DNA of 53,334 nt. Origin: a virus. How positions within the stretch are numbered: position 1 is the first letter of the stretch; each line of letters begins with the position of its first letter. Below are positions 7,475 to 35,235 of the stretch, in pieces. Under the pieces are notes generated by a model. That model saw only the letters and a program-made list of their open reading frames with translations, was not told the DNA's origin and searched no databases. The stretch spans positions 1 to 53,334 of IMG/VR virus record IMGVR_UViG_3300010399_000010; one strand, written 5' to 3'. A program made the translations under genes and the position numbers.

Positions 7475-8569
7475 ATGCCGAATACCTATGGACGGCGCGT
7501 ACTGGGCACGACCGGGATTCCCGTCTGGGTGTCTGCCGATGGCAGCCCCGAGTGGAAGGCCGGCGGCATCACGATCGACTGGGCCACGATCACCGCCGAA
7601 GTGACCGCGCGGACCCTGACCGATGGCACGATCATCGCGGCCGGAGCCAAGGGCCTGGAATTCGGGACCATCCTGTGTCAGAGGACGGTCCAGGAGGTCC
7701 AGTCTATTCAAGTGGATGCGACCGGCGGCGACTTCACGATGAGTGGCAACGCAGCGACCACCGCCGCACTGGCCTATAACGCGAGCGCGGCGACCGTGCA
7801 GGCCGCAATTCGGGCACTGGGCGGCGCCTATGCGGGCGTGGTTGTCACGAAGGTCAGGAACCGCTGGACCATCACCGAACAGGCCGGGACCGACGGCGGC
7901 ACCTTCAGCTTGCGCATCACACGCGGCGGGCAAAGCCGGCTCGTTGAGGGGATCGCCTGGGATGTCGCCTCCACCACCACGCTGGATGCGGCGATCGAGG
8001 CGCTCGACATCATCGGGACCGGCGGCGTCGCGGCGACGGGCAGCGCGGGCGGGCCGTACACACTGGTCTTCGCGCCCGCGCTGGGGGCGATCGAGGTGGA
8101 GATCGCGAACGATTTGACCAGTGACGGCGGCGTGCTGGAGGGCGGGCTGGTGCTGGCCAACCTCCAGGGCGGCGCGTATGTGATCACCTTCCCTGCGGGC
8201 GGGGGCGATGTCACGGCGCTCACGACCACCGTAACGGGACTGACCGGCGGCGCGAGTACCGCGACGGTCGCGACCCCGACCGCCGGCGCGGCCAGTGGAA
8301 CCTACGGGCCGTTCAGCAGCGCCGCGACCGATGGACGGCAGACGCTGGCGCGGGGCCGCTGCTATATCCTGAACGAGAGTTTGACCGAACTCGGCCCGGT
8401 CGGGCTCGCCACGCAAGCGACCGATCATCCGGGGGTGTTCGACGGCGGGCGGGTGTGGCGGGCGCGGCTGAACATCGGCGGCGCCAACCCAACCTCGATC
8501 GGCGGGAATGAGCCCACGGCAGCGGAATTTGAGGCGGCCTTTCCGCGCATCCAATTTGTAGACCTTTAG
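7475..8569 (+). CDS. Putative head decoration protein
   Basis: A 364-residue protein directly before the major capsid gene, starting at ATG 7475 after GGAGG. The N-terminal part (residues 1-65) and the C-terminal part (from about 260) look like one gpD-like decoration domain. The C-terminal part contains RGRCYILNESL, a Gly-rich GVFDGGRVWRARL and the ending FPRIQFVDL. Between them lies a long Thr/Ala/Gly-rich insertion of beta type with two similar stretches (AAIRALGGAYAGVVV and AAIEALDIIGTGGVAA), suggesting one or two Ig-like surface domains. Location and composition support decoration; it could also be a head fibre. Confidence 0.8.
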   Translation: MPNTYGRRVLGTTGIPVWVSADGSPEWKAGGITIDWATITAEVTARTLTDGTIIAAGAKGLEFGTILCQRTVQEVQSIQVDATGGDFTMSGNAATTAALAYNASAATVQAAIRALGGAYAGVVVTKVRNRWTITEQAGTDGGTFSLRITRGGQSRLVEGIAWDVASTTTLDAAIEALDIIGTGGVAATGSAGGPYTLVFAPALGAIEVEIANDLTSDGGVLEGGLVLANLQGGAYVITFPAGGGDVTALTTTVTGLTGGASTATVATPTAGAASGTYGPFSSAATDGRQTLARGRCYILNESLTELGPVGLATQATDHPGVFDGGRVWRARLNIGGANPTSIGGNEPTAAEFEAAFPRIQFVDL

Positions 8570-8614
8570 TCACCGCCTCGGGGCGGGTTGCTCGCGGTCA
8601 GGAGGGCCGTACCT

Positions 8615-9751
8615 ATGGCTGAAAATCTGCGCTATCTCCAGGCGGTGCGCGTCAATACGATCATGCAGGCGCTCTCCGACGCGCGCGAACTGCCCGGCAC
8701 CCTGCCCTGGTCGTCGCGCATCGGGGATGTACCGGCGGTGGACGGTGAGATCATGGCCCGTTTCATCGGGCGGGTCCAGATTGCCGATCTGATCGCGGAT
8801 GACGCGGCGGCGGTGGTCTATCAGGCCGGCAAGTTTAATTTCGAGTCGACCGCGGTGCCGAACCTCAAGCACGGCATTGCGATGAGTCAGGAGATGCTCA
8901 ATCAACTGGCATCGCTCCAGGGCACCGTCACGAACGATATGGGCATCTTCACCGGCTACGAGCAGCGCACGATCGATAACCTGCTGCTCGGCATCCGCTG
9001 GCGCCAGGAGGCGCTGCTGATCGCGATGCTGCTCGACGGCTTCAGCTACGATCGGCTGGGCATCAAGATGGTCAATGTGTCCTGGGGCATGCCCTCGGAC
9101 CTCAAGATCACCGTGTCACCGACCTGGGATACGGCCGGCAGCGCGACCCCGGTTGATAACATCCTGGCGGCGGTCCTGATCGGCCAGACGCGCTATGGGA
9201 TTACCTTCAATCGCGTCTCCATGACCACGACCGATTTTCGGTATATGGTCGCGACGGCGGAATACCAAGCCAAAGCGAAGCAGTTTCTGCCGCCGCAACT
9301 GACCTTCTCTGACCTCTCGCTCGCGAACCTGACTCAGCAACGCGCGCTCGCGGAAGCGACCCTGGGCATGACGATCGAACTGAACGACAGTCGCTACTGG
9401 AGCGCCGCCGCGAATGGCGTACAGACCAGCGCGCCCTTCCACCCGGTCGGACAGGTCATCCTGACCAGCAGCGCGAACGACAATCAGGACAGCGTGATGG
9501 ACTTCGCCAACGGCGTCGTCACCGAGTCGATCGTCGCCGATCTGGTCGACTCCGGGATGATCGGCAACCTAGGCGGGATGCAGCGCGGCCCGCTGGCCTA
9601 TGCGACCGCCGCAAACCCGAACCTCAACCCGCCCGGCGTCGTGTATTGGGGGGTCAAGCGCGGCTTCCCCCGTAAGCACCTGCTGCAAGCCAGCGCACGC
9701 TTGACGGTTGGAACCTATGGGGACCTGATCGCGGTCGGGGAGCCGTTCTAG
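8615..9751 (+). CDS. Major capsid protein (gpE type)
   Basis: A 378-residue HK97-fold coat protein of the lambda gpE family (Phage_cap_E). Typical features are the early EIMARFIGRVQIADLI segment, the long helix (AMSQEMLNQL), RWRQEALLIAMLLDG in the middle, and the AVLIGQTRYG/FNRVSMTTTDFRYM region. The start ATG 8615 follows GGAGG. The decoration gene before it and the neck genes after it agree. No separate prohead delta domain is seen, consistent with use of the nested scaffold. Confidence 0.93.
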   Translation: MAENLRYLQAVRVNTIMQALSDARELPGTLPWSSRIGDVPAVDGEIMARFIGRVQIADLIADDAAAVVYQAGKFNFESTAVPNLKHGIAMSQEMLNQLASLQGTVTNDMGIFTGYEQRTIDNLLLGIRWRQEALLIAMLLDGFSYDRLGIKMVNVSWGMPSDLKITVSPTWDTAGSATPVDNILAAVLIGQTRYGITFNRVSMTTTDFRYMVATAEYQAKAKQFLPPQLTFSDLSLANLTQQRALAEATLGMTIELNDSRYWSAAANGVQTSAPFHPVGQVILTSSANDNQDSVMDFANGVVTESIVADLVDSGMIGNLGGMQRGPLAYATAANPNLNPPGVVYWGVKRGFPRKHLLQASARLTVGTYGDLIAVGEPF

Positions 9752-11966: not shown

Positions 11967-12764
11967 ATGGCACCAGGGGACTTGTTTACCTACGAACTCA
12001 CCGATGGCAAGGTCCAGATCGCCGAGAGCGACGCGGTGACGTTCACCGACGCGGGTGATCTGGTCGGGCTGGTCGCGCACGGCCTCATCGCCGGAACGGC
12101 GGTCGCGTTCTCGTCGATCACGACCACGACCGGCATTACGACCTCCACGAAATACTATGTGATCGGGACACCCGGCGCCGACAGCTTCCAGATCGGTGCC
12201 ACCCCCGGCGGCAGCGCGGTGGTGCTGACGGGCAACGGGAGTGGCGTCATGAAGACCCTGGCCGAAATTGATTTGCTCTACGCCAATAAAATCGAGATCG
12301 AAGCGGAGGAGCAGACGATCACCTGGGCGGGCGACGGGCAGCAGCGATCGGTGTATGTCACGCGCGGCATGACCGCAACCCTTCCAACCGACTGCCTCAG
12401 TGTCGCGGCGGCGGCGCGCATTTTTAACAAAACGCCCGTCACCGCCAACCTTCCCGCCGGGCTAACCACCATGACCTACTTTGGGGAGCCGGCGGAAACG
12501 GGCGGCGTGAGTGCGGGCCTGTGGGCCGAAGGGTACGCTATCCGCCGCAATGCCATCAGTGGCGCTGAAGACCGGATCGACATGCGCCTCTGGATTATGC
12601 TGGGCACCTTGACGCTGGGCGGCGCGCCGGGGCTCGCGACTGGCGAGAAGAGCGGGCAGATGGTCTATAAGCTCGGCGCCGTCCGCTCGACCGTTGATGT
12701 CACCGGCACGGCGCTGCCGGGTGTGCCGAGTGGCGGGGCCTTTTATGCGATCGGGGAGAAGTAG
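11967..12764 (+). CDS. Major tail (tube) protein
   Basis: A 265-residue protein followed by the tail chaperones and tape measure, so it is the tube subunit. It has an insertion near the N-terminus (about residues 12-85) rich in Thr/Gly (SSITTTTGITTSTKYYVIG), which looks like a beta-prism or Ig-like surface module, and the tube fold from about 90 on (EQTITWAGDGQQRSVYVTRGM, MRLWIMLGTLTLGG). The next gene starts one base after its stop. Confidence 0.85.
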   Translation: MAPGDLFTYELTDGKVQIAESDAVTFTDAGDLVGLVAHGLIAGTAVAFSSITTTTGITTSTKYYVIGTPGADSFQIGATPGGSAVVLTGNGSGVMKTLAEIDLLYANKIEIEAEEQTITWAGDGQQRSVYVTRGMTATLPTDCLSVAAAARIFNKTPVTANLPAGLTTMTYFGEPAETGGVSAGLWAEGYAIRRNAISGAEDRIDMRLWIMLGTLTLGGAPGLATGEKSGQMVYKLGAVRSTVDVTGTALPGVPSGGAFYAIGEK

Positions 12765-13238
12765 ATGCCACTCACGAACACTTTAACGCTCTCCGGCGGG
12801 CGCGTGGTCCAGGTCCGCATGCCCGATATGTACGAATTGCTCTCCCAGGTCGGCGTCATCCCCAGTGCCCAGCAGGCAGCGCTTATCCGCCTGCTGGAAG
12901 GGGCGGGGGCAATCGCCGCACAGGGTCTTCAGCAGCACTTCAGCGCGATGAAGGACTATTTGCTCGGCGTCTATGAGATTGCCGCGCTCTGCCTGGTTGA
13001 GCCGAGATTGAGGCTGAAAGGCGAGCCGGGACCTGGCGAGATCGGCCCGGCGGATCTCTCCCAGCAGGACCTCTGGGACATCTATAACCGCTTTTTTTGG
13101 GCCGGGCCGCCAAAGCCGGCCATTCCCGAAGGTAACAGCACCGCTCCCCCAGCCGAAAACCCTGAAGGGACTCAGGATGCTCCACCTGCTGGCAAAGGAG
13201 TACCAGACGCGGCCATCCGCCCTGCTCGGCGTGGATGA
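12765..13238 (+). CDS. Tail assembly chaperone, upstream product (gpG-like)
   Basis: A 157-residue protein between the tube and tape measure genes. The folded part is residues 1-112 (LSGGRVVQVRMPDMYELLSQVG through LWDIYNRFFW). It then becomes a Pro/Ala/Gly-rich tail with no fold. Exactly at that change the gene has a run of seven T (13092-13098, codons 110-111 TTT TTT). A second frame (13177-13335) continues with a chaperone-like segment, so a frameshift product (gpGT-like) is likely. Chaperones of this kind coat the tape measure before the tube polymerises. Confidence 0.82.
   Translation: MPLTNTLTLSGGRVVQVRMPDMYELLSQVGVIPSAQQAALIRLLEGAGAIAAQGLQQHFSAMKDYLLGVYEIAALCLVEPRLRLKGEPGPGEIGPADLSQQDLWDIYNRFFWAGPPKPAIPEGNSTAPPAENPEGTQDAPPAGKGVPDAAIRPARRG
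13092..13098 (+). promoter_or_regulatory. Possible slippery site (T7) in the tail chaperone gene
   Basis: Seven T in a row read as CGC TTT TTT TGG. The downstream chaperone frame is +1 relative to the upstream frame, so a +1 or -2 shift is needed rather than the usual -1; a -2 shift is known in phage Mu. The downstream frame is open from before this site through to 13335. The site is the best candidate, but slippage elsewhere before 13177 cannot be excluded. Confidence 0.45.
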
Positions 13239-13338: not shown

Positions 13339-16230
13339 ATGAGCGAGGGCCTGCGCGCCGGGAGCGCTTTTTCTGTCTACCGCATCAACTATAGCGCCTT
13401 CGACCAGGACGCGGCGCATATTGAGCATCGCTATGCCGAACTGGCGCGGATGGCGGACAAGCCCTTGCCCGCGCCGCGTCTCCCGTCGTCGCTCCCTGGC
13501 GGCCCTGCTGCCCCGTCCAGCCCCGATAGCGCACCACAGCTCCAGCGTGAAGCGGACGCTGCGCTGCGCCTGGCCCAATCACGGGCCAATCTCGCACGGG
13601 CGGAGGGCGATGAGACGCGGGCGCTCGCGATCCTGAATTCCGCACTTGGGCAGAATGCCCATGCGAGCGAGCGGGTGAGCCTGGCGGTGCAGACCCAGGC
13701 GGCGCGCATTGAGCATGGCACGGGTGGCTTGCAGCGGTTCGGCCAGGTTGCGGGGCAACTCGGCGGGCAGATCGGGGGGTTGGCCGGGCAGATCGGCAAT
13801 CTGGCTGGCTCACTCGGCACGATCGGTGCGGTGGGGGCGGTGGTCGGGCTCGGCCGTACGGCGCTGGAGCTGGCCCAGACGGGCGCGCAGGCACAGCGGA
13901 CGCGCGGCGCCTTTGATGACCTGGCCACCCAGGCGCATACGACCGGGAGCGCGCTGATTACTGCGCTCCGATCGGCCAGCCATGGCGAGATCAACGATCT
14001 CAATTTAGAGCTTGCCGCGAACCGCGCGAACCTGCTCGGTGTGGCGGACTCCGCAACGGAGTTCTCGCTCATGATGGAGATCGCGCGGGACCGCGCGCAG
14101 AAGATGGGGTTATCGACCGGCCAGGCGTTCGACAACCTCGTTACCGGGCTCGGTCGGGCCAGCCCGCTGATCCTGGATAACCTCGGTATTACGGTCAGCG
14201 CCGAAACCGCCAACGAAAACTACGCGCGGAGCATCGGAAAAACCGCCGCAGCGCTGACCGAGGCCGAGAAAAAGCAGGCCCTCATCAACGAGGTGCTTGC
14301 GCAAGGACGGGCGAGTTTAGCGGCGACCGGCGGCGCGGCGGATGACGCGGCGGGGAAGTTCGACCGGGCGCAAGCCTCGATCGACAATGCAAAGGCCGCA
14401 GTCGGGGGCCTGCTCGCGCTGAAGATCGCACCGTGGGCCGAAGACATCAGCCGCGTCACGAATGCCCTGATCGGCCTGGGCGACGCAGGGGCGGGCTTCC
14501 AGGGCTTTGCGCACATGAACGCGCAGGTCAACCCGCTCCTGAACAATTTGCAACTCCTGGGCAGCGGGATCGAGAGCGCCACACGCGGCCTTACAGGCAT
14601 CCCGCTCGATCTGGCCGCGCCCGTCAACGCGGCGGTCGAGTCGTACCAGAATCTGGGGAGCCTTGCCACCCAGGCGGCAGGGGGGATCGACGCGGCGGCC
14701 CAGGCCGCGCGGGGCCAGGCGGATGCGGCGCTGGCTGCTGCGTCCGGCATGGCCTACCAGAGTCGGGCGATGATCGACGCGGCCAACGCCGCTGACCTCC
14801 ACCGGGCGATTATGCTCGACGATCGCCAGGAGAACATCCAGGCCTATGAGGCCGCGCTCGGCTTTGCGTCCGCCGCCGGGCAATCCGCTGTACAAAGCCT
14901 GATTGATGCGGACGCCAAACAGGCCCAGGCCGAGCAGATCCGCATCCTTCAAGAGCAAGCCAACGAGGCGACCAACAGCTTCCTCACCCTGAACCCAACG
15001 ATCGATGCGGCGGGTATTGCCGCACTCATCGCCGCCGGCAAGCTGGACCCACTCATCGGCCAACTTGCGGCGGTTCGGATCGAGGCGGCTAAGACCGCCA
15101 ACCAGATGATTCAGTTGAATAGCACGCTGGGTGGCGGGATCGGTGCGGGCGCGAAACCCCTGGGCCGGCTGGATCATGGCGGTGGCGGGGCGCTCAGTGC
15201 CGACGCGATCGGTGAGCGCATCCGCAATATGGATCAGACCGAGCGGATCTATGCCCACTTCAGCGGTGTGGAGACGGGCGCCCGCACGCGCAGCCGTGCA
15301 ACCGGCGCGGGGCACCTCTCGGATATGCAGCAGCTCAACAATAGTTTGCTCGCCAACCAGTCAAGCTATGAGCAGAAGGCCCAGGACCTGGAGCGCCAGC
15401 ATGGCGAGAACCTGCTCCGCATCGAGCGCGACTTTCAGACCAAGAGCCTGGCGCAGCAGAGCCAGAACGAAGAAAAAAAGCGCGAAGGTCGCTACCAGTT
15501 CTACAAGTCCCTGGCCGACGCGGGCAAGGACCTGGGCGACGCTGAGGCGCAAGGGTACAGTGCGGCCTATGAGCAGGCGTTCGCGGAGAGCCAAAAGTTA
15601 GCCCAGGATGGGCAGCACAAGCTGGCCGCCGATCGGCTGGCGCTCCGGCAGCAGCAGATCCAGCAGGATATTGAGGCGGCCAAAGCCATCGCAGCGGCTG
15701 AAGCGGAAGGCGACACTAAACGGGCTGACAGTCTCAAGGCGCTGGAGGCACTGCGCAAGGACAGCCAGGCCGAAGAACTCAAGCAACTGGAAGGGCGGGG
15801 CGATGCGCTCGTCCAAGACCGCCAAAGGGCGATTGACGACGAGGCGACCCGCTATCAGGGCGCGCAGGACAGTAACGCGATTGCTGCCGAGCGCAAGGCC
15901 GATCGGGCCGTCACGGCGGCCGAGCGTGAGCAGAAGGCGATCGGGGATACCAACGCCCTGCTGGCTGAACAGCAGCGGCTCTACGGCCAGACGAGCCCAC
16001 GCGGAAGTGGCGCGGCGACCGCCACACCCGCCGCAAGCATCCCGGCGACTGGGCTGCCAGCAGGGGCTGCCGCCGCTGCTGGTGCCTTCGCCGTCTTCGA
16101 TGCGGCGGTCGTCAGTGCGATCGAGTCCCAGACGACCACACTGGGTGGCAAGCTCGACCTCCTGATCGGGCGCGTCGATGCGGTGGAGCGGGCGGTGCGC
16201 GCGAGCAAGGCGCCGGGGAGTGTCCAGTAA
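13339..16230 (+). CDS. Tail tape measure protein
   Basis: A 963-residue, Ala/Gln-rich, largely helical protein. Features include a Gly-rich hydrophobic stretch (about residues 130-180, LGGQIGGLAGQIGNLAG), the tape-measure core ASPLILDNLGITVSAETANE with KKQALINEVL and AVGGLLALKIAPWAEDI, and long coiled coils (about residues 670-860). At about 1.5 angstrom per residue it predicts a tail near 140 nm, which supports siphovirus form. It is the longest gene in the window and follows the chaperones. Confidence 0.95.
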   Translation: MSEGLRAGSAFSVYRINYSAFDQDAAHIEHRYAELARMADKPLPAPRLPSSLPGGPAAPSSPDSAPQLQREADAALRLAQSRANLARAEGDETRALAILNSALGQNAHASERVSLAVQTQAARIEHGTGGLQRFGQVAGQLGGQIGGLAGQIGNLAGSLGTIGAVGAVVGLGRTALELAQTGAQAQRTRGAFDDLATQAHTTGSALITALRSASHGEINDLNLELAANRANLLGVADSATEFSLMMEIARDRAQKMGLSTGQAFDNLVTGLGRASPLILDNLGITVSAETANENYARSIGKTAAALTEAEKKQALINEVLAQGRASLAATGGAADDAAGKFDRAQASIDNAKAAVGGLLALKIAPWAEDISRVTNALIGLGDAGAGFQGFAHMNAQVNPLLNNLQLLGSGIESATRGLTGIPLDLAAPVNAAVESYQNLGSLATQAAGGIDAAAQAARGQADAALAAASGMAYQSRAMIDAANAADLHRAIMLDDRQENIQAYEAALGFASAAGQSAVQSLIDADAKQAQAEQIRILQEQANEATNSFLTLNPTIDAAGIAALIAAGKLDPLIGQLAAVRIEAAKTANQMIQLNSTLGGGIGAGAKPLGRLDHGGGGALSADAIGERIRNMDQTERIYAHFSGVETGARTRSRATGAGHLSDMQQLNNSLLANQSSYEQKAQDLERQHGENLLRIERDFQTKSLAQQSQNEEKKREGRYQFYKSLADAGKDLGDAEAQGYSAAYEQAFAESQKLAQDGQHKLAADRLALRQQQIQQDIEAAKAIAAAEAEGDTKRADSLKALEALRKDSQAEELKQLEGRGDALVQDRQRAIDDEATRYQGAQDSNAIAAERKADRAVTAAEREQKAIGDTNALLAEQQRLYGQTSPRGSGAATATPAASIPATGLPAGAAAAAGAFAVFDAAVVSAIESQTTTLGGKLDLLIGRVDAVERAVRASKAPGSVQ

Positions 16231-28038: not shown

Positions 28039-28925
28039 TATTCATCCTCCCACGTCTCATCATCTCCGTCATCCTCCCGCGAGTCGTCATAGCTCGGCGG
28101 CGGGGGTGGCGCCGTCTCCACCGCCACGAGCAGCGCGCCGTAGCGATCGAGGTAGGCGTGGAGGTCCTTCAAATGCTCCCAACCGAACCAGTAATCATGC
28201 GGGCCTGCCACGTCGCGCGTATCGCGCACGGCCAGGCCGCTCCGGTGGAGCGAGGCCGCGTAGGTGCCCCAGTCCGCCACGAACTCTGGCGCCCAGAACC
28301 CACGGAACCGCGCGGCGTCCAGCAACCTAACCGCGGTATCCCGATCGAGCGTCGGGGTCGCGAGTATATCGCCTACGACCCATTCGTACTGGAATGGCGT
28401 GTAGTCGCTCCGATAACCCTGGCTCGGCGGCGCCACGCAGTAGCAGCCTTCGCCCTGCGTCTCACTCAGCACCAGCAGGTTGCTGCCCGTGCCCTGGCTG
28501 CTCAGAATCTCGTGCCCTGGCGGATTGGGCATCCGCAGATAAACGTGATGCCCCTTGCCGGTCTTCGCGATCGGCAAGTTCGCGGCGGCCCGCGCGAGCG
28601 CGCTGTCCAGGTGCTCAAGATCGCGGAGCCAGGCCGGCAGACAGGCCTGACATTCAAAGTCGATCATGACGAGGCCGCCGCTGACCTGACCGCCGACGAT
28701 GCCGATCCCGGCGTCACTGTCAGCGAACCAGGCGACCAGTTCCCGATCGGTCGGGAAGCGGCGGGTGTAGACGCGCCAGGGAGAGCGCTCGTCACTCGCT
28801 ATCCAAGGAAGTTGCGCCATTGGATCAAGCCGGGGATTGTACGGCAGTTTCCCGCCGCGCTCGATCGGGATGACCGAGAGGCCCGCCCGAACGTAGGCCC
28901 GCGCGATGTCAAGTAGCTCACTCAT
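28038..28925 (-). CDS. Prim-pol type primase (bifunctional primase/polymerase N-domain)
   Basis: A 295-residue protein; ATG 28925 follows AGGAGG. It opens LDIARAYVRAGLSVIPI, the usual start of the archaeo-eukaryotic-primase family in phages (PF09250). Catalytic candidates are Asp89 and Glu91 in LVMIDFE and the sugar/phosphate motif GKGHHVY (124-129). The rest of the fold (VGGQVSGGLV, SETQGEGCYCVAPPS) fits. No helicase domain is fused, so it would make primers with host or separately supplied helicase. The C-terminus is a Pro run and an acidic tail. Confidence 0.88.
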   Translation of the reverse strand: MSELLDIARAYVRAGLSVIPIERGGKLPYNPRLDPMAQLPWIASDERSPWRVYTRRFPTDRELVAWFADSDAGIGIVGGQVSGGLVMIDFECQACLPAWLRDLEHLDSALARAAANLPIAKTGKGHHVYLRMPNPPGHEILSSQGTGSNLLVLSETQGEGCYCVAPPSQGYRSDYTPFQYEWVVGDILATPTLDRDTAVRLLDAARFRGFWAPEFVADWGTYAASLHRSGLAVRDTRDVAGPHDYWFGWEHLKDLHAYLDRYGALLVAVETAPPPPPSYDDSREDDGDDETWEDE

Positions 28926-29136
28926 GGTTCGTTTCCTCCTGTAGCTGTTCAATCGTCGGGCGTGTCGCCCAACGCATCCGATCGTAATCCCGCGCTGCGA
29001 TCATCCGTGCGGCGCCTTCGGCCCAATGCGCGCTCGACCCCGGCACGATCAGATCGAGCGTGATAACATCCGGCTCGCCGTCATGCGGCGCGTAGGAGGC
29101 CAAGAGTGTCCCACGCACGCGGTAGAAGGTCGTCAC
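28918..29136 (-). CDS. Small hypothetical protein
   Basis: A 72-residue protein, its stop overlapping the prim-pol start. Beta-rich start (FYRVRGTLLASYAPHD; DVITLDLIVPG), then a helix AHWAEGAARMIAARDYDRM and the TIEQLQEE ending shared with the gene at 27290. Function unknown. Confidence 0.72.
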   Translation of the reverse strand: MTTFYRVRGTLLASYAPHDGEPDVITLDLIVPGSSAHWAEGAARMIAARDYDRMRWATRPTIEQLQEETNHE

Positions 29137-29594
29137 GTGCCCCTCGTTTTCACGGCGTCGTCGTAGGCAGCCAGCGCTTCCTCAAGCGGCTTACGATGTT
29201 CAAAGAGCGGCGCGCCGAGTGCTGCCCGCGCCGCCTGGACCACCACCCGCGCGGCCGCTCGTTCGGTCAGGAGCGTCTCCCGTTCGTGTGTCAGATCAAC
29301 CGCATGCATCCAAAGCGATTGGGCACGTTCGCGCAACCCCGCAACGTAGTCGTCCAGCTCACCGCCCGCCAGTGGCCGCCTGTCGTCCTTTTCGTCGAGC
29401 GCGCGCTGGAGAGTGCGAGTGTCCTCTTGCGCCATCCGTAGCCCAACCATCGTATTGATTGCCCGGTCCCGATAGATGTGGGCCGCCGCCCTCCATACCC
29501 GCGCCCAACTCCCTCCCACCTGATCGGGTGGAAGGCCACGCAACCGCACCAACACCCAGGCTCTAAAGCGACCGGGATGGGTTAACGCCCTCAT
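29133..29594 (-). CDS. Helical hypothetical protein, paralogue-like C-terminus
   Basis: A 153-residue, mostly helical and basic protein (RVWRAAAHIYRDRAINTMVGLRM; RERAQSLWMHAVDLTHERETLL). Its C-terminus PLEEALAAYDDAVKTRG resembles the C-terminus NIDQAMDDYDAAVKARE of the gene before it, suggesting a duplication. Starts in ATGA overlap with that gene. Role in replication unknown. Confidence 0.75.
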   Translation of the reverse strand: MRALTHPGRFRAWVLVRLRGLPPDQVGGSWARVWRAAAHIYRDRAINTMVGLRMAQEDTRTLQRALDEKDDRRPLAGGELDDYVAGLRERAQSLWMHAVDLTHERETLLTERAAARVVVQAARAALGAPLFEHRKPLEEALAAYDDAVKTRGT

Positions 29595-30000: not shown

Positions 30001-30294
30001 TTACTGTCCTCCTTGCTTCCACCGCCGCTGAACCCGCTCCAAAAGCGACGGAAACGCATACGGCCAGAGTGGGCCGCCCGCTACTGCCATCGCGAGAATG
30101 ACCGCCCGGTTGATCGGGTCGGTCCCGGCAGTCAGTCCGCACGTGAAGCCGCCATTGCGAAAGACGAGCTGTTGCTCATCCTCCTGAACTTCCAGCCCCC
30201 ACCGGCGCGCCCGCCGGGCGATCTCCGGCAGTGACACAAAGACGGTATCAGCGAGGCGCTCGGTCAACGTCTCCACGAATACGTTGGCGCTCAC
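30001..30294 (-). CDS. Small hypothetical protein
   Basis: A 97-residue protein that starts with GTG in a GTGA overlap with the 471-residue gene. It has a helical N-terminus (VETLTERLADTVFVSLPEIARRARRWG), a short beta pair (QQLVFRNGGFTCGLTAG) and a hydrophobic middle (NRAVILAMAVAGG). No family is recognised. Confidence 0.74.
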   Translation of the reverse strand: MSANVFVETLTERLADTVFVSLPEIARRARRWGLEVQEDEQQLVFRNGGFTCGLTAGTDPINRAVILAMAVAGGPLWPYAFPSLLERVQRRWKQGGQ

Positions 30295-31706
30295 GCTGCC
30301 GCCTCCTTGATCTGTCGCTCCACCGCACTCAACCGATCCGCCAGCCGCGTATAGGTCGTGTCATCCAGGCCCGGCGCCAGGTCGTCGAGCAGTCGCCGCG
30401 CCGCCTGGATGTTCGCCGCACTCGCTGCCGCGCCAGCCGCCTCCAGCGCCGCGATCTGATCGAGGAGGTCAGGCGCGACAGATGGCGTGCGCGTGGGCGG
30501 GGACTCTACCGCGCCCGCGACCGCTTCGCGCAAGCCGAGCCAATCGAACGGGCCAGCGATCAGCTGCATGCCGATCGCGAGCCAGCAGTCGAGCGCGCGG
30601 GCCTGGTCGCGCAGTGGCGTGAGCGCGCTGAGGCTCTCGGCCAGTTGGCCAACCCTCAGCCAGTCGATCGCGCCCGCCGCCCGTGCTCTCGTCTCCCACA
30701 GCTCACACAGCCGCTCCAGCTCGTCCGCATCGCACCACGAAACACCATGCCCAGTCGGCGGCACGATGGGCAGCCGGCCGTCTGATCGCTGCTTCATATA
30801 GTTGATCGTCGCGCCGAGCCCTTCCGCGCGCTCACACACCGCCCGGAGCCGCGCCATGTCGGGATAGCTCGCGCGGGCTTCGTCTTCCTGCTGCTCCTGA
30901 AGCGCCTGGTCCCGATGCGCCAGGCAGCGCTGCTCTGCCCAGCCGGCGATGTTCTCCTTGCCGATCGATTCCTGATCGCACCCTTCGACCGCGCACATGC
31001 GCGGGGCGGTCGCTGCGCAAATGAGGCAGCGCCGGGCGGCCGTTGGCGGGGCCGGCTTGCCTTGGGTGGTCTTCTCGCACCGCGACTCCCAGTAGCCGCC
31101 GCTCTCCGCGCGTCGCCACTGATGCGACTCCAGCGCGTCGGGGTGGGTTTGACCCCAGGTCCAGGCGCCAGCAGTCGCGTCCATTTCCGCCACAGTGGCG
31201 GATTCCAGCCAGAAGGGCGGCGGCAACCCCGCCATAGGGTGTGGGTGCGGCACGCCGTTGATTGTCAGCGCGGGGGCGGGACTGTCCATTTCCGCCACTG
31301 TGGCGGATTTGCCAGTCCCCTTCGCCCGACTCACATCCGCCTTTGTGGGCGGCGTCTCCTGCTCCAAAAGCCGCTGCCGAACCTCTGGCGCGATACTCGG
31401 CTGGGCCAGTTCCCCGGCGACCGTCGCACCGATCCAGTCCGACCTGATCGCCTCAGCGAACTGCGGATCGGCCTCTGCGCGTGCGTGAATGTCGAGTAGG
31501 CGTTTCGCGGTCGACTCGCTCGTCCGGGTCGCCACAAGGAAGATCCCCCACTCGCCATGCTGCGCTTCCGCCCGCGCTTTCGCGAGCCAGGAGGCCGCCT
31601 CCAGAAGCGCGTCGCCGCTGCGCTTCTGCGCGGCAAGGTAGGACCGCGCGATGTCTTGGAGCGACCGGGAGAGGGTCGCGGGGGCTTCCAGAATGATAGC
31701 TGTCAT
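30291..31706 (-). CDS. DUF3102-like protein with zinc-binding centre
   Basis: A 471-residue protein. Residues 14-120 resemble DUF3102: long helices with AASWLAKARAEAQHGEWGIFL and TAKRLLDIHARAEADPQ. The middle (about 215-275) has CLICAATAPRMCAVEGC, a Cys-rich knuckle, then a HRDQALQEQQEDEA helix. The C-terminal half is helical. Two copies of the 17-bp palindrome lie inside the gene and encode ESATVAEMD-like octapeptides twice (near residues 134 and 168), so the reading frame has absorbed the repeats. DUF3102 proteins are often in phage replication or plasmid regions; function is not established. Confidence 0.78.
   Translation of the reverse strand: MTAIILEAPATLSRSLQDIARSYLAAQKRSGDALLEAASWLAKARAEAQHGEWGIFLVATRTSESTAKRLLDIHARAEADPQFAEAIRSDWIGATVAGELAQPSIAPEVRQRLLEQETPPTKADVSRAKGTGKSATVAEMDSPAPALTINGVPHPHPMAGLPPPFWLESATVAEMDATAGAWTWGQTHPDALESHQWRRAESGGYWESRCEKTTQGKPAPPTAARRCLICAATAPRMCAVEGCDQESIGKENIAGWAEQRCLAHRDQALQEQQEDEARASYPDMARLRAVCERAEGLGATINYMKQRSDGRLPIVPPTGHGVSWCDADELERLCELWETRARAAGAIDWLRVGQLAESLSALTPLRDQARALDCWLAIGMQLIAGPFDWLGLREAVAGAVESPPTRTPSVAPDLLDQIAALEAAGAAASAANIQAARRLLDDLAPGLDDTTYTRLADRLSAVERQIKEAAA
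31186..31202. repeat. Dispersed palindrome, copy 2
   Basis: TCCGCCACAGTGGCGGA within the DUF3102-like gene, preceded by CCATT as in copy 3. It is read in frame as part of an SATVAEMD segment. Confidence 0.8.
31291..31307. repeat. Dispersed palindrome, copy 3
   Basis: TCCGCCACTGTGGCGGA, 105 bp from copy 2 in the same gene and in the same frame, again encoding SATVAEMD. Its flanks CCATT and TTTG match those of other copies. Confidence 0.8.
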
Positions 31707-32905
31707 TGATCGTTCTCCAGTGCGAAATGTGATAAAAGTGGCTGGATTGTGCCGTCGTGGTAGGTTTGTGGGATCAACTCGGTCGCGTCTGGATCGGCAT
31801 CGCTCCAGCGTTGCGGGTAGGTGCGGAGCGCGATCAACTCCCGGATGCGTGCCTCTTCTTCAGCGTTGATCAGATCGATCGGTGGTTGCTCACATGCAGC
31901 CGCGCCGTTCACCTCGGCTTGGATTGCCAGGACCTGGCCCAAAGCCCACTCGCGCGCCGCCAGGGTGAGCGGACCTTTCCGCGATGGATTCGCGCTGTGC
32001 TGGCCGTCCTTGTTTCGCTCGCCGTTCTTTTGCTTGCGATGCTTAAACAGCCGCAACTCCTCGTAGAGTGGACGCAGGCGCTTGAGTGGCGCGAGATACG
32101 ACCAGTGCGGCAGCGAGATCACATGATCAAGTGCCGTGTCCCTGGTCGCGAGCGGACAGCCGATACAGCCGGTGCGGGCGTTCATCTCCAGTGCCTCATC
32201 GCCACCGTACACGTCCGCAACCATCGCCGTAGGCAATCCCCACTGCGGCGCGTAGAACGTCAGCAGATCCCATACGTGACAGACCCGCCAGTGCAGCAGC
32301 GGCGCGAGCGTGTCAGCCACCGCCGCCGGGGTCGCCTCTTGGAACCAACCTTGCCCACACTCCGCGCCATTCTTGCCGCACGAGAGCGCGATCCGCGCAT
32401 CCCTGACCGCGCTTTCCCCCAGGCGCACGCCCGTAAGCATGAGGATTTTTTCGCCCGCCCGCTCGCGCAGTGCCTTGAGCGCGGCAACCATCGGCTCAAC
32501 CTTGAGTTGCGGCGTACACCAGCGCAACGTATTGTTGTTCGGCGGCGGCACCCCGCGACCGAGCATATAGACAAAGTAGCGATCGTCAAGCGCTGGGAGG
32601 ACCACTTGTGTGCGGATGCCGCGCTGAGAGAGTGTACCGAGCATCTGCATGGCACCGAAATGGAGCGGCGGGATCTCCTGGCGGGTATCGGCGTAGAGGG
32701 CTGTGAGCGTCTCCGGTCGCGGGATTTGCCCGCTCTCGATCAGACGCACAACGATAGCGACCTCTGCTGTGCTGTCCTTGCCGCCGCTATAGGCCATGGC
32801 CCAGTGGCGATACTCCGAACCGTAGGACAGGAGACTCTGGCGCGTGAGATCGATCGAGTCCTCAAGCGTCATCCGCTGGTCGTCGAAGAAACCGATCGTC
32901 TTCAT
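31703..32905 (-). CDS. PAPS reductase / DndC-like PP-loop protein
   Basis: A 400-residue protein; ATG 32905 follows AGGAG. The PP-loop SGGKDS is at residues 40-45, followed by LTALYADTRQEIPPL. C130 lies in LRWCTPQLK, GVRLGESAVRD at 159-169, and paired Cys at CGKNGAEC (176-183) and CIGC (247-250) that could hold an iron-sulfur cluster. This is the PAPS reductase / DndC superfamily. In Dnd systems DndC activates DNA for sulfur insertion; in phages the exact reaction is unknown. It is coupled by overlap to a Mom-like acyltransferase and a methyltransferase gene, which points to DNA modification. Confidence 0.9.
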   Translation of the reverse strand: MKTIGFFDDQRMTLEDSIDLTRQSLLSYGSEYRHWAMAYSGGKDSTAEVAIVVRLIESGQIPRPETLTALYADTRQEIPPLHFGAMQMLGTLSQRGIRTQVVLPALDDRYFVYMLGRGVPPPNNNTLRWCTPQLKVEPMVAALKALRERAGEKILMLTGVRLGESAVRDARIALSCGKNGAECGQGWFQEATPAAVADTLAPLLHWRVCHVWDLLTFYAPQWGLPTAMVADVYGGDEALEMNARTGCIGCPLATRDTALDHVISLPHWSYLAPLKRLRPLYEELRLFKHRKQKNGERNKDGQHSANPSRKGPLTLAAREWALGQVLAIQAEVNGAAACEQPPIDLINAEEEARIRELIALRTYPQRWSDADPDATELIPQTYHDGTIQPLLSHFALENDQ

Positions 32906-33606
32906 ACAAATCGCTCCTGTACTTCTTGATCGGCCCGCCTGGCGCGGTAGCGGCGCGACCGCCACGCCTGGCTGGCGAGCTTGCGGATCATGTCGTCTTC
33001 GTAGTTTGAAAGCGGCGCGACCGCCGGCGAGCACCATGTCTGAATGCCGCCCGCGTTCGTGCGTGCGAGTTCCCACCCCGCCGCGCGGTAGATCGTCCCC
33101 TTGTGCAGCCGCGTGTCGCAGTAGGAGAGCAGCACCTTGATTTGATATGGCTCATCGGGATAGACCGGCGGGCGCGCTCGCAAGTAGTCGTAATTCACCC
33201 GCTCCAGCAGCAGCCGGATCGCGTCCGAGGCCAGGGTCGATCGCGCGACGTTCCGCCGATCGACGAACAGCGGCACGTAGCCCGTCGCAAAAAGATCGCC
33301 GCCGCGTTGCACGCGCGGGGAGAGCCACACCCGCGCGAGATTGAGCACCTCCCAGCGGTCGTACTCAGCACGGCCAGAGCGCACGTCTCTCAGCGACCCG
33401 TAGGTCAGCCGCCCGTCGTAGCACCTGGTTGCTTCGGGCCGGCCGACGATCAGGCACCCGACCGGGAAGTCGATCCCGTCCAACTCCACGAGGTAGGCCA
33501 GCGGGCTACAGCGCGAGTCGACCGGCGCGCGGAGGTAGTGGTGCTGCGCGACCTGGCGCTGCGCCCAGGCAAAGCCCTGCCTATCGGCGATGCGGAGATG
33601 GATCAT
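32902..33606 (-). CDS. Mom-like GNAT acyltransferase (probable DNA modification)
   Basis: A 234-residue protein. It has the pattern of the phage GNAT-like family that travels with PAPS-reductase-like genes: HHYLRAPVDSRCSPLAYLVE, GCLIVGRPEATRCYDG, RWEVLNLARVWLSP, and DEPYQIKVLLSYCDTRLHKGT. Mom of phage Mu, a related GNAT, puts a carbamoylmethyl group on adenine; what this protein adds is unknown. It overlaps both neighbours by 4 bp, so the three genes are translated together. I am confident of the family pattern, less so of the substrate. Confidence 0.78.
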   Translation of the reverse strand: MIHLRIADRQGFAWAQRQVAQHHYLRAPVDSRCSPLAYLVELDGIDFPVGCLIVGRPEATRCYDGRLTYGSLRDVRSGRAEYDRWEVLNLARVWLSPRVQRGGDLFATGYVPLFVDRRNVARSTLASDAIRLLLERVNYDYLRARPPVYPDEPYQIKVLLSYCDTRLHKGTIYRAAGWELARTNAGGIQTWCSPAVAPLSNYEDDMIRKLASQAWRSRRYRARRADQEVQERFV

Positions 33607-34715
33607 AGGAGAGCCTCCATGTCGATCTGCACGCCGTTCGTGCGTGTCTCCGCGAGTGCGAGGTACGCGCCGTTCGCCTCGATCCCCAGAAAATCACGCC
33701 CGTAGCGCTCGGCGACTTTCCCAACAGTCGCAGTGCCGCTGAATGGATCGAGGATCGTGTCACCGGGTCGCGTGGAAGCCAGCACGCACGGCTCGACGAG
33801 CGCCTCTGGGAAGGTGGCGAAGTGCGCGCCGGCGTAGGGCGCGGATGGGATGCGCCAGACGGAGCGGCGGTTGCGCGTGCCGCTCCCGATGAACTCACGA
33901 TAGTAGCCGCTGAGCGCGGTCTTGGCCTCGGCGGCCAGTTTGAGCACCTCGGCGGTGTTACCGCCATGTTGGGTCGCGCGCGCCTTGTCAGTATCCGTGA
34001 TACCGGCGGACCGAATGGCAGCCATGTGTGCATCGGTGAGACCAGCCTGATCGGCCAGTTCCTCAGCGCGGCGGCGTTGCGGGCGATCGGCTTGCGCGGA
34101 TGGCTCCCCGATCGCAGCCGCATCGTAGTAGTAGCGCTCGCCAAGAGCGAGCAAAAACAAATACTCGTGTGATCGGGTTGGGCGGTCGTCGACTCGCTCC
34201 GGCATGCAGCTTGGCTTCTCCCAAATACAATCGCAGCGCAAGTACCATCCATCGGCCTGAAGCGCGAGCGCGGCCCGCCAGGGCACCCCATACAAATCCT
34301 TGTCTTTCAGCCCGGCACTGGCGCGCGGTCGTCGGGGGTAGCGCCCCGCTTCGCTCGTGTGATTTTTGTTGCCCGATCGAGCGCCCCACTTGCTCGGCTG
34401 CGCATACGAGTCGCCCAGGTTGAGCCAGAGGACCCCATCAGGTCGTAGCACGGCGCGCACGAGCCGAAAGACATGCACGAGGTGCCCGATGTAGGACAGC
34501 GGATCATCCTCCAGGCCCAGGCAGCACTCGGAGGGCGGAACCGCGACGGGCGGCACACCCGCGAGCGGGGCATAGCTGATCGCTGGCCAGCGCGTGGGCG
34601 GAATGTGATAGTCGCGAAGGCCAAAGTAAGGAGGCGAGCTAATCACGCATTGAACGCTCGCGACGGGGAGCGTGGGCAGCACATCCGTGCAGTCGCCGTG
34701 AATCAGGGTGATCAT
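33603..34715 (-). CDS. DNA methyltransferase, beta class (SPPY, probably N4-cytosine)
   Basis: A 370-residue enzyme. The catalytic motif SPPY is at residues 27-30, followed by a target-recognition region, and motif I DPFSGTATVG with LGIEANGAYLALAE near the C-terminus, so the order is IV-TRD-I (beta class). SPPY is more typical of N4-cytosine enzymes than of N6-adenine ones (DPPY), but some SPPY enzymes differ. ATG 34715 is chosen over the longer upstream start because the latter lies inside another gene. No restriction gene is beside it, so it is likely protective or part of a larger modification. Confidence 0.92.
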   Translation of the reverse strand: MITLIHGDCTDVLPTLPVASVQCVISSPPYFGLRDYHIPPTRWPAISYAPLAGVPPVAVPPSECCLGLEDDPLSYIGHLVHVFRLVRAVLRPDGVLWLNLGDSYAQPSKWGARSGNKNHTSEAGRYPRRPRASAGLKDKDLYGVPWRAALALQADGWYLRCDCIWEKPSCMPERVDDRPTRSHEYLFLLALGERYYYDAAAIGEPSAQADRPQRRRAEELADQAGLTDAHMAAIRSAGITDTDKARATQHGGNTAEVLKLAAEAKTALSGYYREFIGSGTRNRRSVWRIPSAPYAGAHFATFPEALVEPCVLASTRPGDTILDPFSGTATVGKVAERYGRDFLGIEANGAYLALAETRTNGVQIDMEALL

Positions 34716-34894
34716 CGCGGCACCTCGCCAGGCGCGTAGGCGTGCGACTCCGTTTCGGAGTGCTTGACCAGCACGCTCCATCTGAGTGCCGCGCTCACCC
34801 GCTCGACAATCCCCCAGCGCTCGGACTGCGGATGGTAGACAAGTTCGCTGCCCTGGAGGAGGCGCGGCTGGTCGCGGTTGATGTAGCCGATCAT
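34712..34894 (-). CDS. Small SH3-like hypothetical protein
   Basis: A 60-residue protein overlapping both neighbours (HNH gene before, methyltransferase after). It is beta-rich: SELVYHPQSERWGIVERV, ALRWSVLVKHSE, a pattern of small barrel proteins seen in phage operons. Role unknown. Confidence 0.72.
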   Translation of the reverse strand: MIGYINRDQPRLLQGSELVYHPQSERWGIVERVSAALRWSVLVKHSETESHAYAPGEVPR

Positions 34895-35235
34895 AAGCTC
34901 ATCTCCTGTTGCCCCGCCGCGACCTTCTTCGCCCGCCGGGTCCGGGCCGCGTTCGCGATGTGGAGCGGCAGATCGCGCGCGAGATGACAGCGACTACAGA
35001 GCGCGAGCAAATTCTCGCGCCGCACGTCTAGCTTGTCGTGCGGGTCGCCGGGGGAGCCATCCGGCTTCGCGACGCCGATGTGATGCACGCTCATCGTGCG
35101 GCGGTGCGTGTCAAAGGGCTCATCCGGCGTGCGGCACTGCATGCCGCAGTCCTCGCAGATGTAGCGGGCTTCCGCCTTGATGCGGGCGGCGATCTCGCGC
35201 CAGTCAGGGGGGTATTTCGATGGGTCCATCGGCAT
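34891..35235 (-). CDS. HNH endonuclease-like protein
   Basis: A 114-residue protein. It has two zinc knuckles (CEDCGMQC around 27-34 and CSRCH around 80-84) and the HNH core: MSVHHIGVAKPDG with the catalytic His pair, then LDVRRENLLALCSRCHLARD with the Asn. Small HNH proteins act as nicking endonucleases or packaging helpers. Here it lies inside the modification and replication cluster, not by the terminase, so a homing or restriction role is as likely. Confidence 0.85.
   Translation of the reverse strand: MPMDPSKYPPDWREIAARIKAEARYICEDCGMQCRTPDEPFDTHRRTMSVHHIGVAKPDGSPGDPHDKLDVRRENLLALCSRCHLARDLPLHIANAARTRRAKKVAAGQQEMSL

Follow-up and report, generated by a model that had tools for sequence, protein, structure and literature searches.

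A set of three overlapping genes on the minus strand of the metagenomic IMG/VR virus record IMGVR_UViG_3300010399_000010 raises the question of whether a phage builds one unusual nucleotide with a coupled set of enzymes, or carries several DNA-modifying enzymes that act separately. In the window, by which we mean the whole 53,334-bp record, these genes encode a DNA methyltransferase, a GNAT protein resembling Mom of phage Mu, and a PP-loop protein resembling DndC. Our analysis favors, at a probability of roughly 55%, the view of the operon as an island for DNA modification (anti-restriction), whose enzymes are separate, interchangeable layers of protection and not one pathway. That the operon is a modification island is likely, and the trio probably disguises phage DNA chemically from host restriction enzymes. 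The three genes are:

34715-33603, minus strand: N4/N6 DNA methyltransferase, 370 aa (PF01555, phrog_67)
33606-32902, minus strand: Mom-superfamily GNAT, 234 aa (PF25680, phrog_1384, AlphaFold model)
32905-31703, minus strand: DndC-like PP-loop ATP pyrophosphatase and putative sulfurtransferase, 400 aa, with its ATG at 32905 (TIGR03183, phrog_12882)

The original prediction described three overlapping minus-strand open reading frames at 31703-34715, and these are present in the order methyltransferase, GNAT, DndC-like gene, with a 4-bp overlap at each junction. It also took the overlaps as a mark of coupling, a claim that did not survive. In the 28.9-34.9 kb region of the window, the same kind of 4-bp overlap joins most genes to their neighbors (28918-29136 with 29133-29594, then at 29591, 30291/30294, 31703/31706 and 34891/34894), so the overlaps cannot single out the trio; they mark one operon.

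Family assignment of the three proteins

The scores of the three proteins in family scans are far beyond chance. On sequence grounds, the window GNAT is a Mom relative belonging to a rare new Mom subfamily. It matched PF25680 (Mom) with 26.3 bits (E 6.7e-6), 0.8 bit below the 27.1 cut-off, and the Mom-like family phrog_1384 with an E value of 1.8e-7. A wider Mom profile, made from 18 Mom-type proteins of bacterial genomes and Mu Mom with the window protein left out, scored it at 48.8 bits (E 5e-13), the sole clear match in the 168 DndC-like loci described below. Single-sequence searches with the window GNAT gave no matches, and its subfamily was reached through a stepping-stone alignment via distant Chloroflexota Mom proteins. 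The subfamily comprises 16 IMG/VR loci on about 12 distinct contigs besides the window (13 distinct virus contigs when the window is included), at roughly 43-59% identity, and the nearest relatives outside it show only 26-28%. PF25680 was matched by 14 of 15 aligned members at E <= 0.01 (best 1.5e-8).

Residues H23, Y24, D164 and Y173 of the window GNAT align to the Mu Mom motifs KHYSR, SFADE and GVVYQ, and these positions are at least 90% conserved among the 15 aligned members. The corresponding Mu Mom residues H48, Y49, D139 and Y149, which Karambelkar et al. reportedly found important in 2020, are what we take to be positions 58, 59, 149 and 159 of the 241-aa Mu record. The AlphaFold model, a check that the original prediction had called for, confidently folds as a GNAT (predicted local distance difference test score (pLDDT) 91.2, predicted template-modelling score 0.87); GNATs are among its PDB matches at about 1e-4, and its best viral structural match is the Mom-like protein Orf128 of Lactobacillus phage LP65 (1.8e-7). 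The window GNAT thus shares the fold, the H-Y, D and Y motifs and the phage context with Mu Mom, LP65 Orf128 and Mom of Salmonella phage FSL SP-031. Unlike these proteins, it has an additional stretch following LARVWLxPxVQ; a com-like gene was not recognized with it, and the neighbors of its subfamily are methyltransferases and sometimes a DndC-like gene.

Three further observations concern the wider Mom family; the L-numbers used here and below are labels of retrieved loci or contigs. One phage contig, L210, carries two subfamily paralogues about 3.5 kb apart (8001-8702 and 12156-12872). A 593-aa protein of Stanieria cyanosphaera plasmid pSTA7437.02 (L227, 4671-6452), close to the subfamily, contains a Mom domain (2.6e-13) with long extensions at both the N- and the C-terminus. 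Proteins of L173 and L189 that were matched by the Mom profile resemble DruA/DUF4338 (HYLG..., NNSRFL, ETFVD, GTCYRAANW), which suggests a relationship between Druantia DruA and Mom.

The DndC-like protein, predicted as a PP-loop DndC/PAPS (3'-phosphoadenosine 5'-phosphosulfate)-reductase-like protein with paired cysteines, is DndC-like and has conserved cysteines. It matched NCBIfam TIGR03183 (DndC) over residues 28-383, most of its length, at 8e-35, the 120.5 bits not reaching the equivalog cut-off of 290.4; PF01507 (PAPS_reduct) at 3.4e-5, with 24.4 bits against a cut-off of 22.5; and phrog_12882 at 5.6e-158, as a full-length member. Relatives occur in 16 phage records, at least 365 IMG/VR contigs and 146 stretches in GTDB genomes. 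The 11 closest phage relatives, at 52-56% identity, belong to Pseudomonas, Rhizobium and Microcystis phages and include nearly full-length members of the same family in phiC725A, Dobby, vB_PaeM-D14A, RR1-A, RHph_N28_2 and Mae-JY29. The family is thus already widespread in phages, where it is usually labelled 'PAPS reductase'. In L107 (2704-2964) and similar loci, about five in all and cyanobacterial where inspected, the DndC-like gene has a small winged-helix-like gene after it.

The protein carries an SGGKDS PP-loop, RWC130T, C176, C183 and GC247xxC250, and the PP-loop and all five cysteines are invariant among 32 aligned phage members. DndC is reported to hold a 4Fe-4S center on three cysteines and to have a separate cysteine dyad (PMC10853773). 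C130 and C247/C250 align to RWCT and GCWTC of Salmonella DndC, whereas C176 and C183 do not; the extra cysteine region of DndC (GECP...PSCGNS) is absent, and the protein has its own pair instead (SCGKxGAECGQG). Its model (pLDDT 86.6) has the [4Fe-4S] tRNA thiolase NcsA as best PDB fold match, followed by other ATP pyrophosphatases, LarE and TtuA. Because of this DndC-like cysteine set and these fold matches, the best reading of sequence and model together is a sulfurtransferase that would activate its target by adenylation.

The third protein, predicted as an SPPY methyltransferase, matched PF01555 (N6_N4_Mtase) at 4.2e-38, with 131.9 bits against a cut-off of 26.7, and phrog_67 at 3.9e-65. 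Its motifs are ordered IV then I (SSPPY ... DPFSGTATVG), and only two close relatives were recognizable in IMG/VR.

Facultative association of Mom-like and DndC-like genes

A DndC-like gene lies within 3 kb of the GNAT in three of the 12 other Mom-subfamily contigs, at 741 bp in L209, 2.6 kb in L214 and 1.2 kb in L204, in gene orders that differ from the window. The gene of L204 (7597-8133) is truncated at about 178 aa, keeping the PP-loop and RWCT and losing C176/C183 and GCxxC, and no continuation was found in other frames. In the DndC tree the window, L209 with L214, and L204 fall in different clades, the placement of L204 being weakly supported, and the GNAT tree sets the window apart from all three. 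The chance of at least three in 12 is about 5e-10 at a background of 1.3e-4 (365 matches in 2.9 million contigs) and 2e-4 at a background of 1%, with the background only estimated and contigs of similar phages not independent. Control scans with the methyltransferase, a DnaC-like gene, the cytosine-5 methyltransferase of L207 and a sister Mom family gave so few contigs that no matched background could be drawn from them.

The remaining nine of the 12 contigs, which may be incomplete, have no DndC-like gene nearby; one contig, L219, has a distant one elsewhere. From the side of the DndC-like gene, the Mom-subfamily GNAT was found in none of the 167 other loci (within their flanks) and in none of 50 whole contigs. 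No Mom gene was present in any of the seven isolate-phage genomes with a DndC-like gene that were tested, and Mom above cut-off occurred in none of 80 DndC-like virus records, one of which had a weak match elsewhere. Among 40 bacterial genomes with a DndC-like gene, two (Microvirga and Variovorax) had Mom above cut-off; these were rejected as co-occurrences since they lie on other contigs than the DndC-like loci. The DndC-centered PF25680 scan, although right for the DndC-centered contigs, missed the real co-occurrences, which the GNAT-centered search alone found. We found no report of a stand-alone phage DndC with Mom; Psychrobacter phage vB_PmaS_Y8A has a 'PAPS reductase' (ORF4) and Mom (ORF69) at opposite ends of its linear map (PMC10434257).

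A DNA methyltransferase of varying type lies within about 6.5 kb of the GNAT in six of the 12 contigs: cytosine-5 in L204 and in L207, where it overlaps the GNAT by 4 bp, N6/N4 in L205, L215 and, as a helicase-methyltransferase, L209, and a D12 enzyme in L210. No Mom-subfamily GNAT was found in the retrieved stretches of L229 and L230, which carry relatives of the L207 cytosine-5 enzyme. Across the 168 DndC-like loci (the window included), cytosine-5 methyltransferases (about 42 and 13) and N6-type or helicase-methyltransferases (43) are the commonest recurring neighbors, as if these loci sat within modification regions.

The honest reading is that the association of Mom-like and DndC-like genes is recurrent but facultative. 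The functional coupling that the original prediction proposed is partly supported, by the recurrence of the two genes together in three further contigs; an obligate joint pathway is not supported, given the nine GNAT contigs, the 167 loci and a methyltransferase type that is not conserved. Because so many GNAT contigs lack a nearby DndC-like gene and none of the 167 loci has the GNAT, our data suggest that these anti-restriction modifiers are interchangeable and do not form a single obligate pathway, and the varying methyltransferases likewise look like interchangeable modules. Several points weigh against a modification island. The methyltransferase-neighbor counts stand without a matched background of early phage regions, and our literature search found no biochemistry for either the Mom subfamily or the DndC-like subfamily. 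The stand-alone DndC-like protein may place its sulfur on tRNA or on a metabolite, its sulfur donor would have to be a host desulfurase, and the N4/N6 methyltransferase need not share a function with the other two genes.

Around the trio, the operon and its upstream stretch contain:

30291-31706, minus strand: 471-aa open reading frame with a very weak DUF3102 match, directly downstream of the DndC-like gene and overlapping it by 4 bp
34891-35235, minus strand: small HNH endonuclease, upstream in the operon (phrog_1571 3.1e-13; PADLOC ZorE-type HNH 6e-13)
37106-35928, minus strand: cytosine-5 DNA methyltransferase, upstream and in the same direction (PF00145 5e-19, phrog_116 3e-38)

The cytosine-5 methyltransferase belongs to the same stretch as the trio. 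Replication, integrase and modification genes occupy the minus strand of the window, and terminase, portal, protease and major head genes the plus strand; with these genes, the phage is tailed and probably temperate. ARAGORN reported a tRNA-Lys at 15951-16041 (minus strand) inside the tape-measure reading frame 13339-16230 (plus strand), which is probably spurious.

Possible chemistry and competing explanations

The results above establish which genes the operon contains, the homologies and conserved residues of their products, the folds predicted for them and a recurrent but facultative co-occurrence; from these we infer every chemical step, the targets and the protective role. The methyltransferases would methylate bases. 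The Mom-like GNAT would, as Mu Mom does, attach a small group at an exocyclic amine, of which adenine N6 is the most likely; the activity that characterizes Mom is an acetamido-type modification of adenine in DNA. The DndC-like protein would use its PP-loop to adenylate a nucleic-acid target and then probably place sulfur there, with a [4Fe-4S] cluster presumably held by C130, C247 and C250 and the sulfur supplied by a host desulfurase. The original prediction had noted no dndD/E-like genes beside the trio, and this holds for the reading frames scanned: DndD and DndE (or SspB and SspC) had no PADLOC or Pfam match in the larger frames of the window, the short ones being only partly scanned, DndB was not found, and the record gave no cysteine desulfurase (Aminotran_5). 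Without DndD/E or SspB/C, canonical phosphorothioates would be an unlikely product, and thiolation of a base (or of tRNA) would be likelier.

The alternative that survives best, which we nevertheless consider unlikely, is that tRNA of the host or the phage is what the DndC-like protein thiolates, or that it has some other action on RNA during infection, and that DNA is modified by the GNAT and methyltransferases only. Its closest structural match, NcsA, is a U34-tRNA thiolase, the sulfur transferases TtuA and LarE match too, and no DndD/E scanning partner was found. However, NcsA and TtuA share only 15-16% identity with it at template-modelling scores of 0.33-0.46 and belong to different families; its sequence is much closer to DndC, no thiolase family was among its Pfam and NCBIfam matches, and the neighbors that recur across its loci are DNA methyltransferases.

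A sulfur-bearing hypermodified nucleotide unlike described phage bases, made on one base by the DndC-like enzyme and the Mom-subfamily GNAT in sequence, with or without the methyltransferase, is improbable in our estimate. The adjacency of the two genes in the window speaks for it, as do three further co-occurrences in separate DndC branches, far above background for a GNAT subfamily of about 12 contigs; the lopsided contig counts, the truncated gene of L204 and the varying gene order speak against it.

Still less probable is an auxiliary metabolic PAPS reductase of sulfate assimilation. This is the usual database label, in phrog_12882 and in phage annotations, and the PF01507 cut-off is exceeded, but PF01507 is a general domain only; the NCBIfam matches are DndC and hypothetical PRK families with no CysH family among them, and the neighborhood is one of DNA modification, not sulfur assimilation. 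Least probable of all is canonical phosphorothioation through host DndD/E or SspB/C, for which the long co-linear DndC similarity would argue, but the bit score lies far under the DndC cut-off, the cysteine arrangement is unlike that of DndC, and no DndD/E is annotated beside the gene in the seven phage regions examined.

Compared with a joint base, the more robust point is that the 'PAPS reductase' so common in phages probably acts as a stand-alone nucleic-acid sulfurtransferase. The new Mom subfamily adds a small branch to a family of which the chemistry, too, is understood only in part. Phages by the hundreds carry the DndC-like gene under the label of 'PAPS reductase' or auxiliary metabolic gene, whereas the evidence favors a sulfurtransferase that modifies DNA or RNA and lacks the usual partners in phosphorothioation. 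If this is true, a widespread phage gene has been misread, and phage nucleic acid would bear a sulfur mark of which our search found no report. The gene is present in the cultured Pseudomonas phages Dobby and phiC725A and the Rhizobium phages RR1-A and RHph_N28_2, which makes this directly testable.

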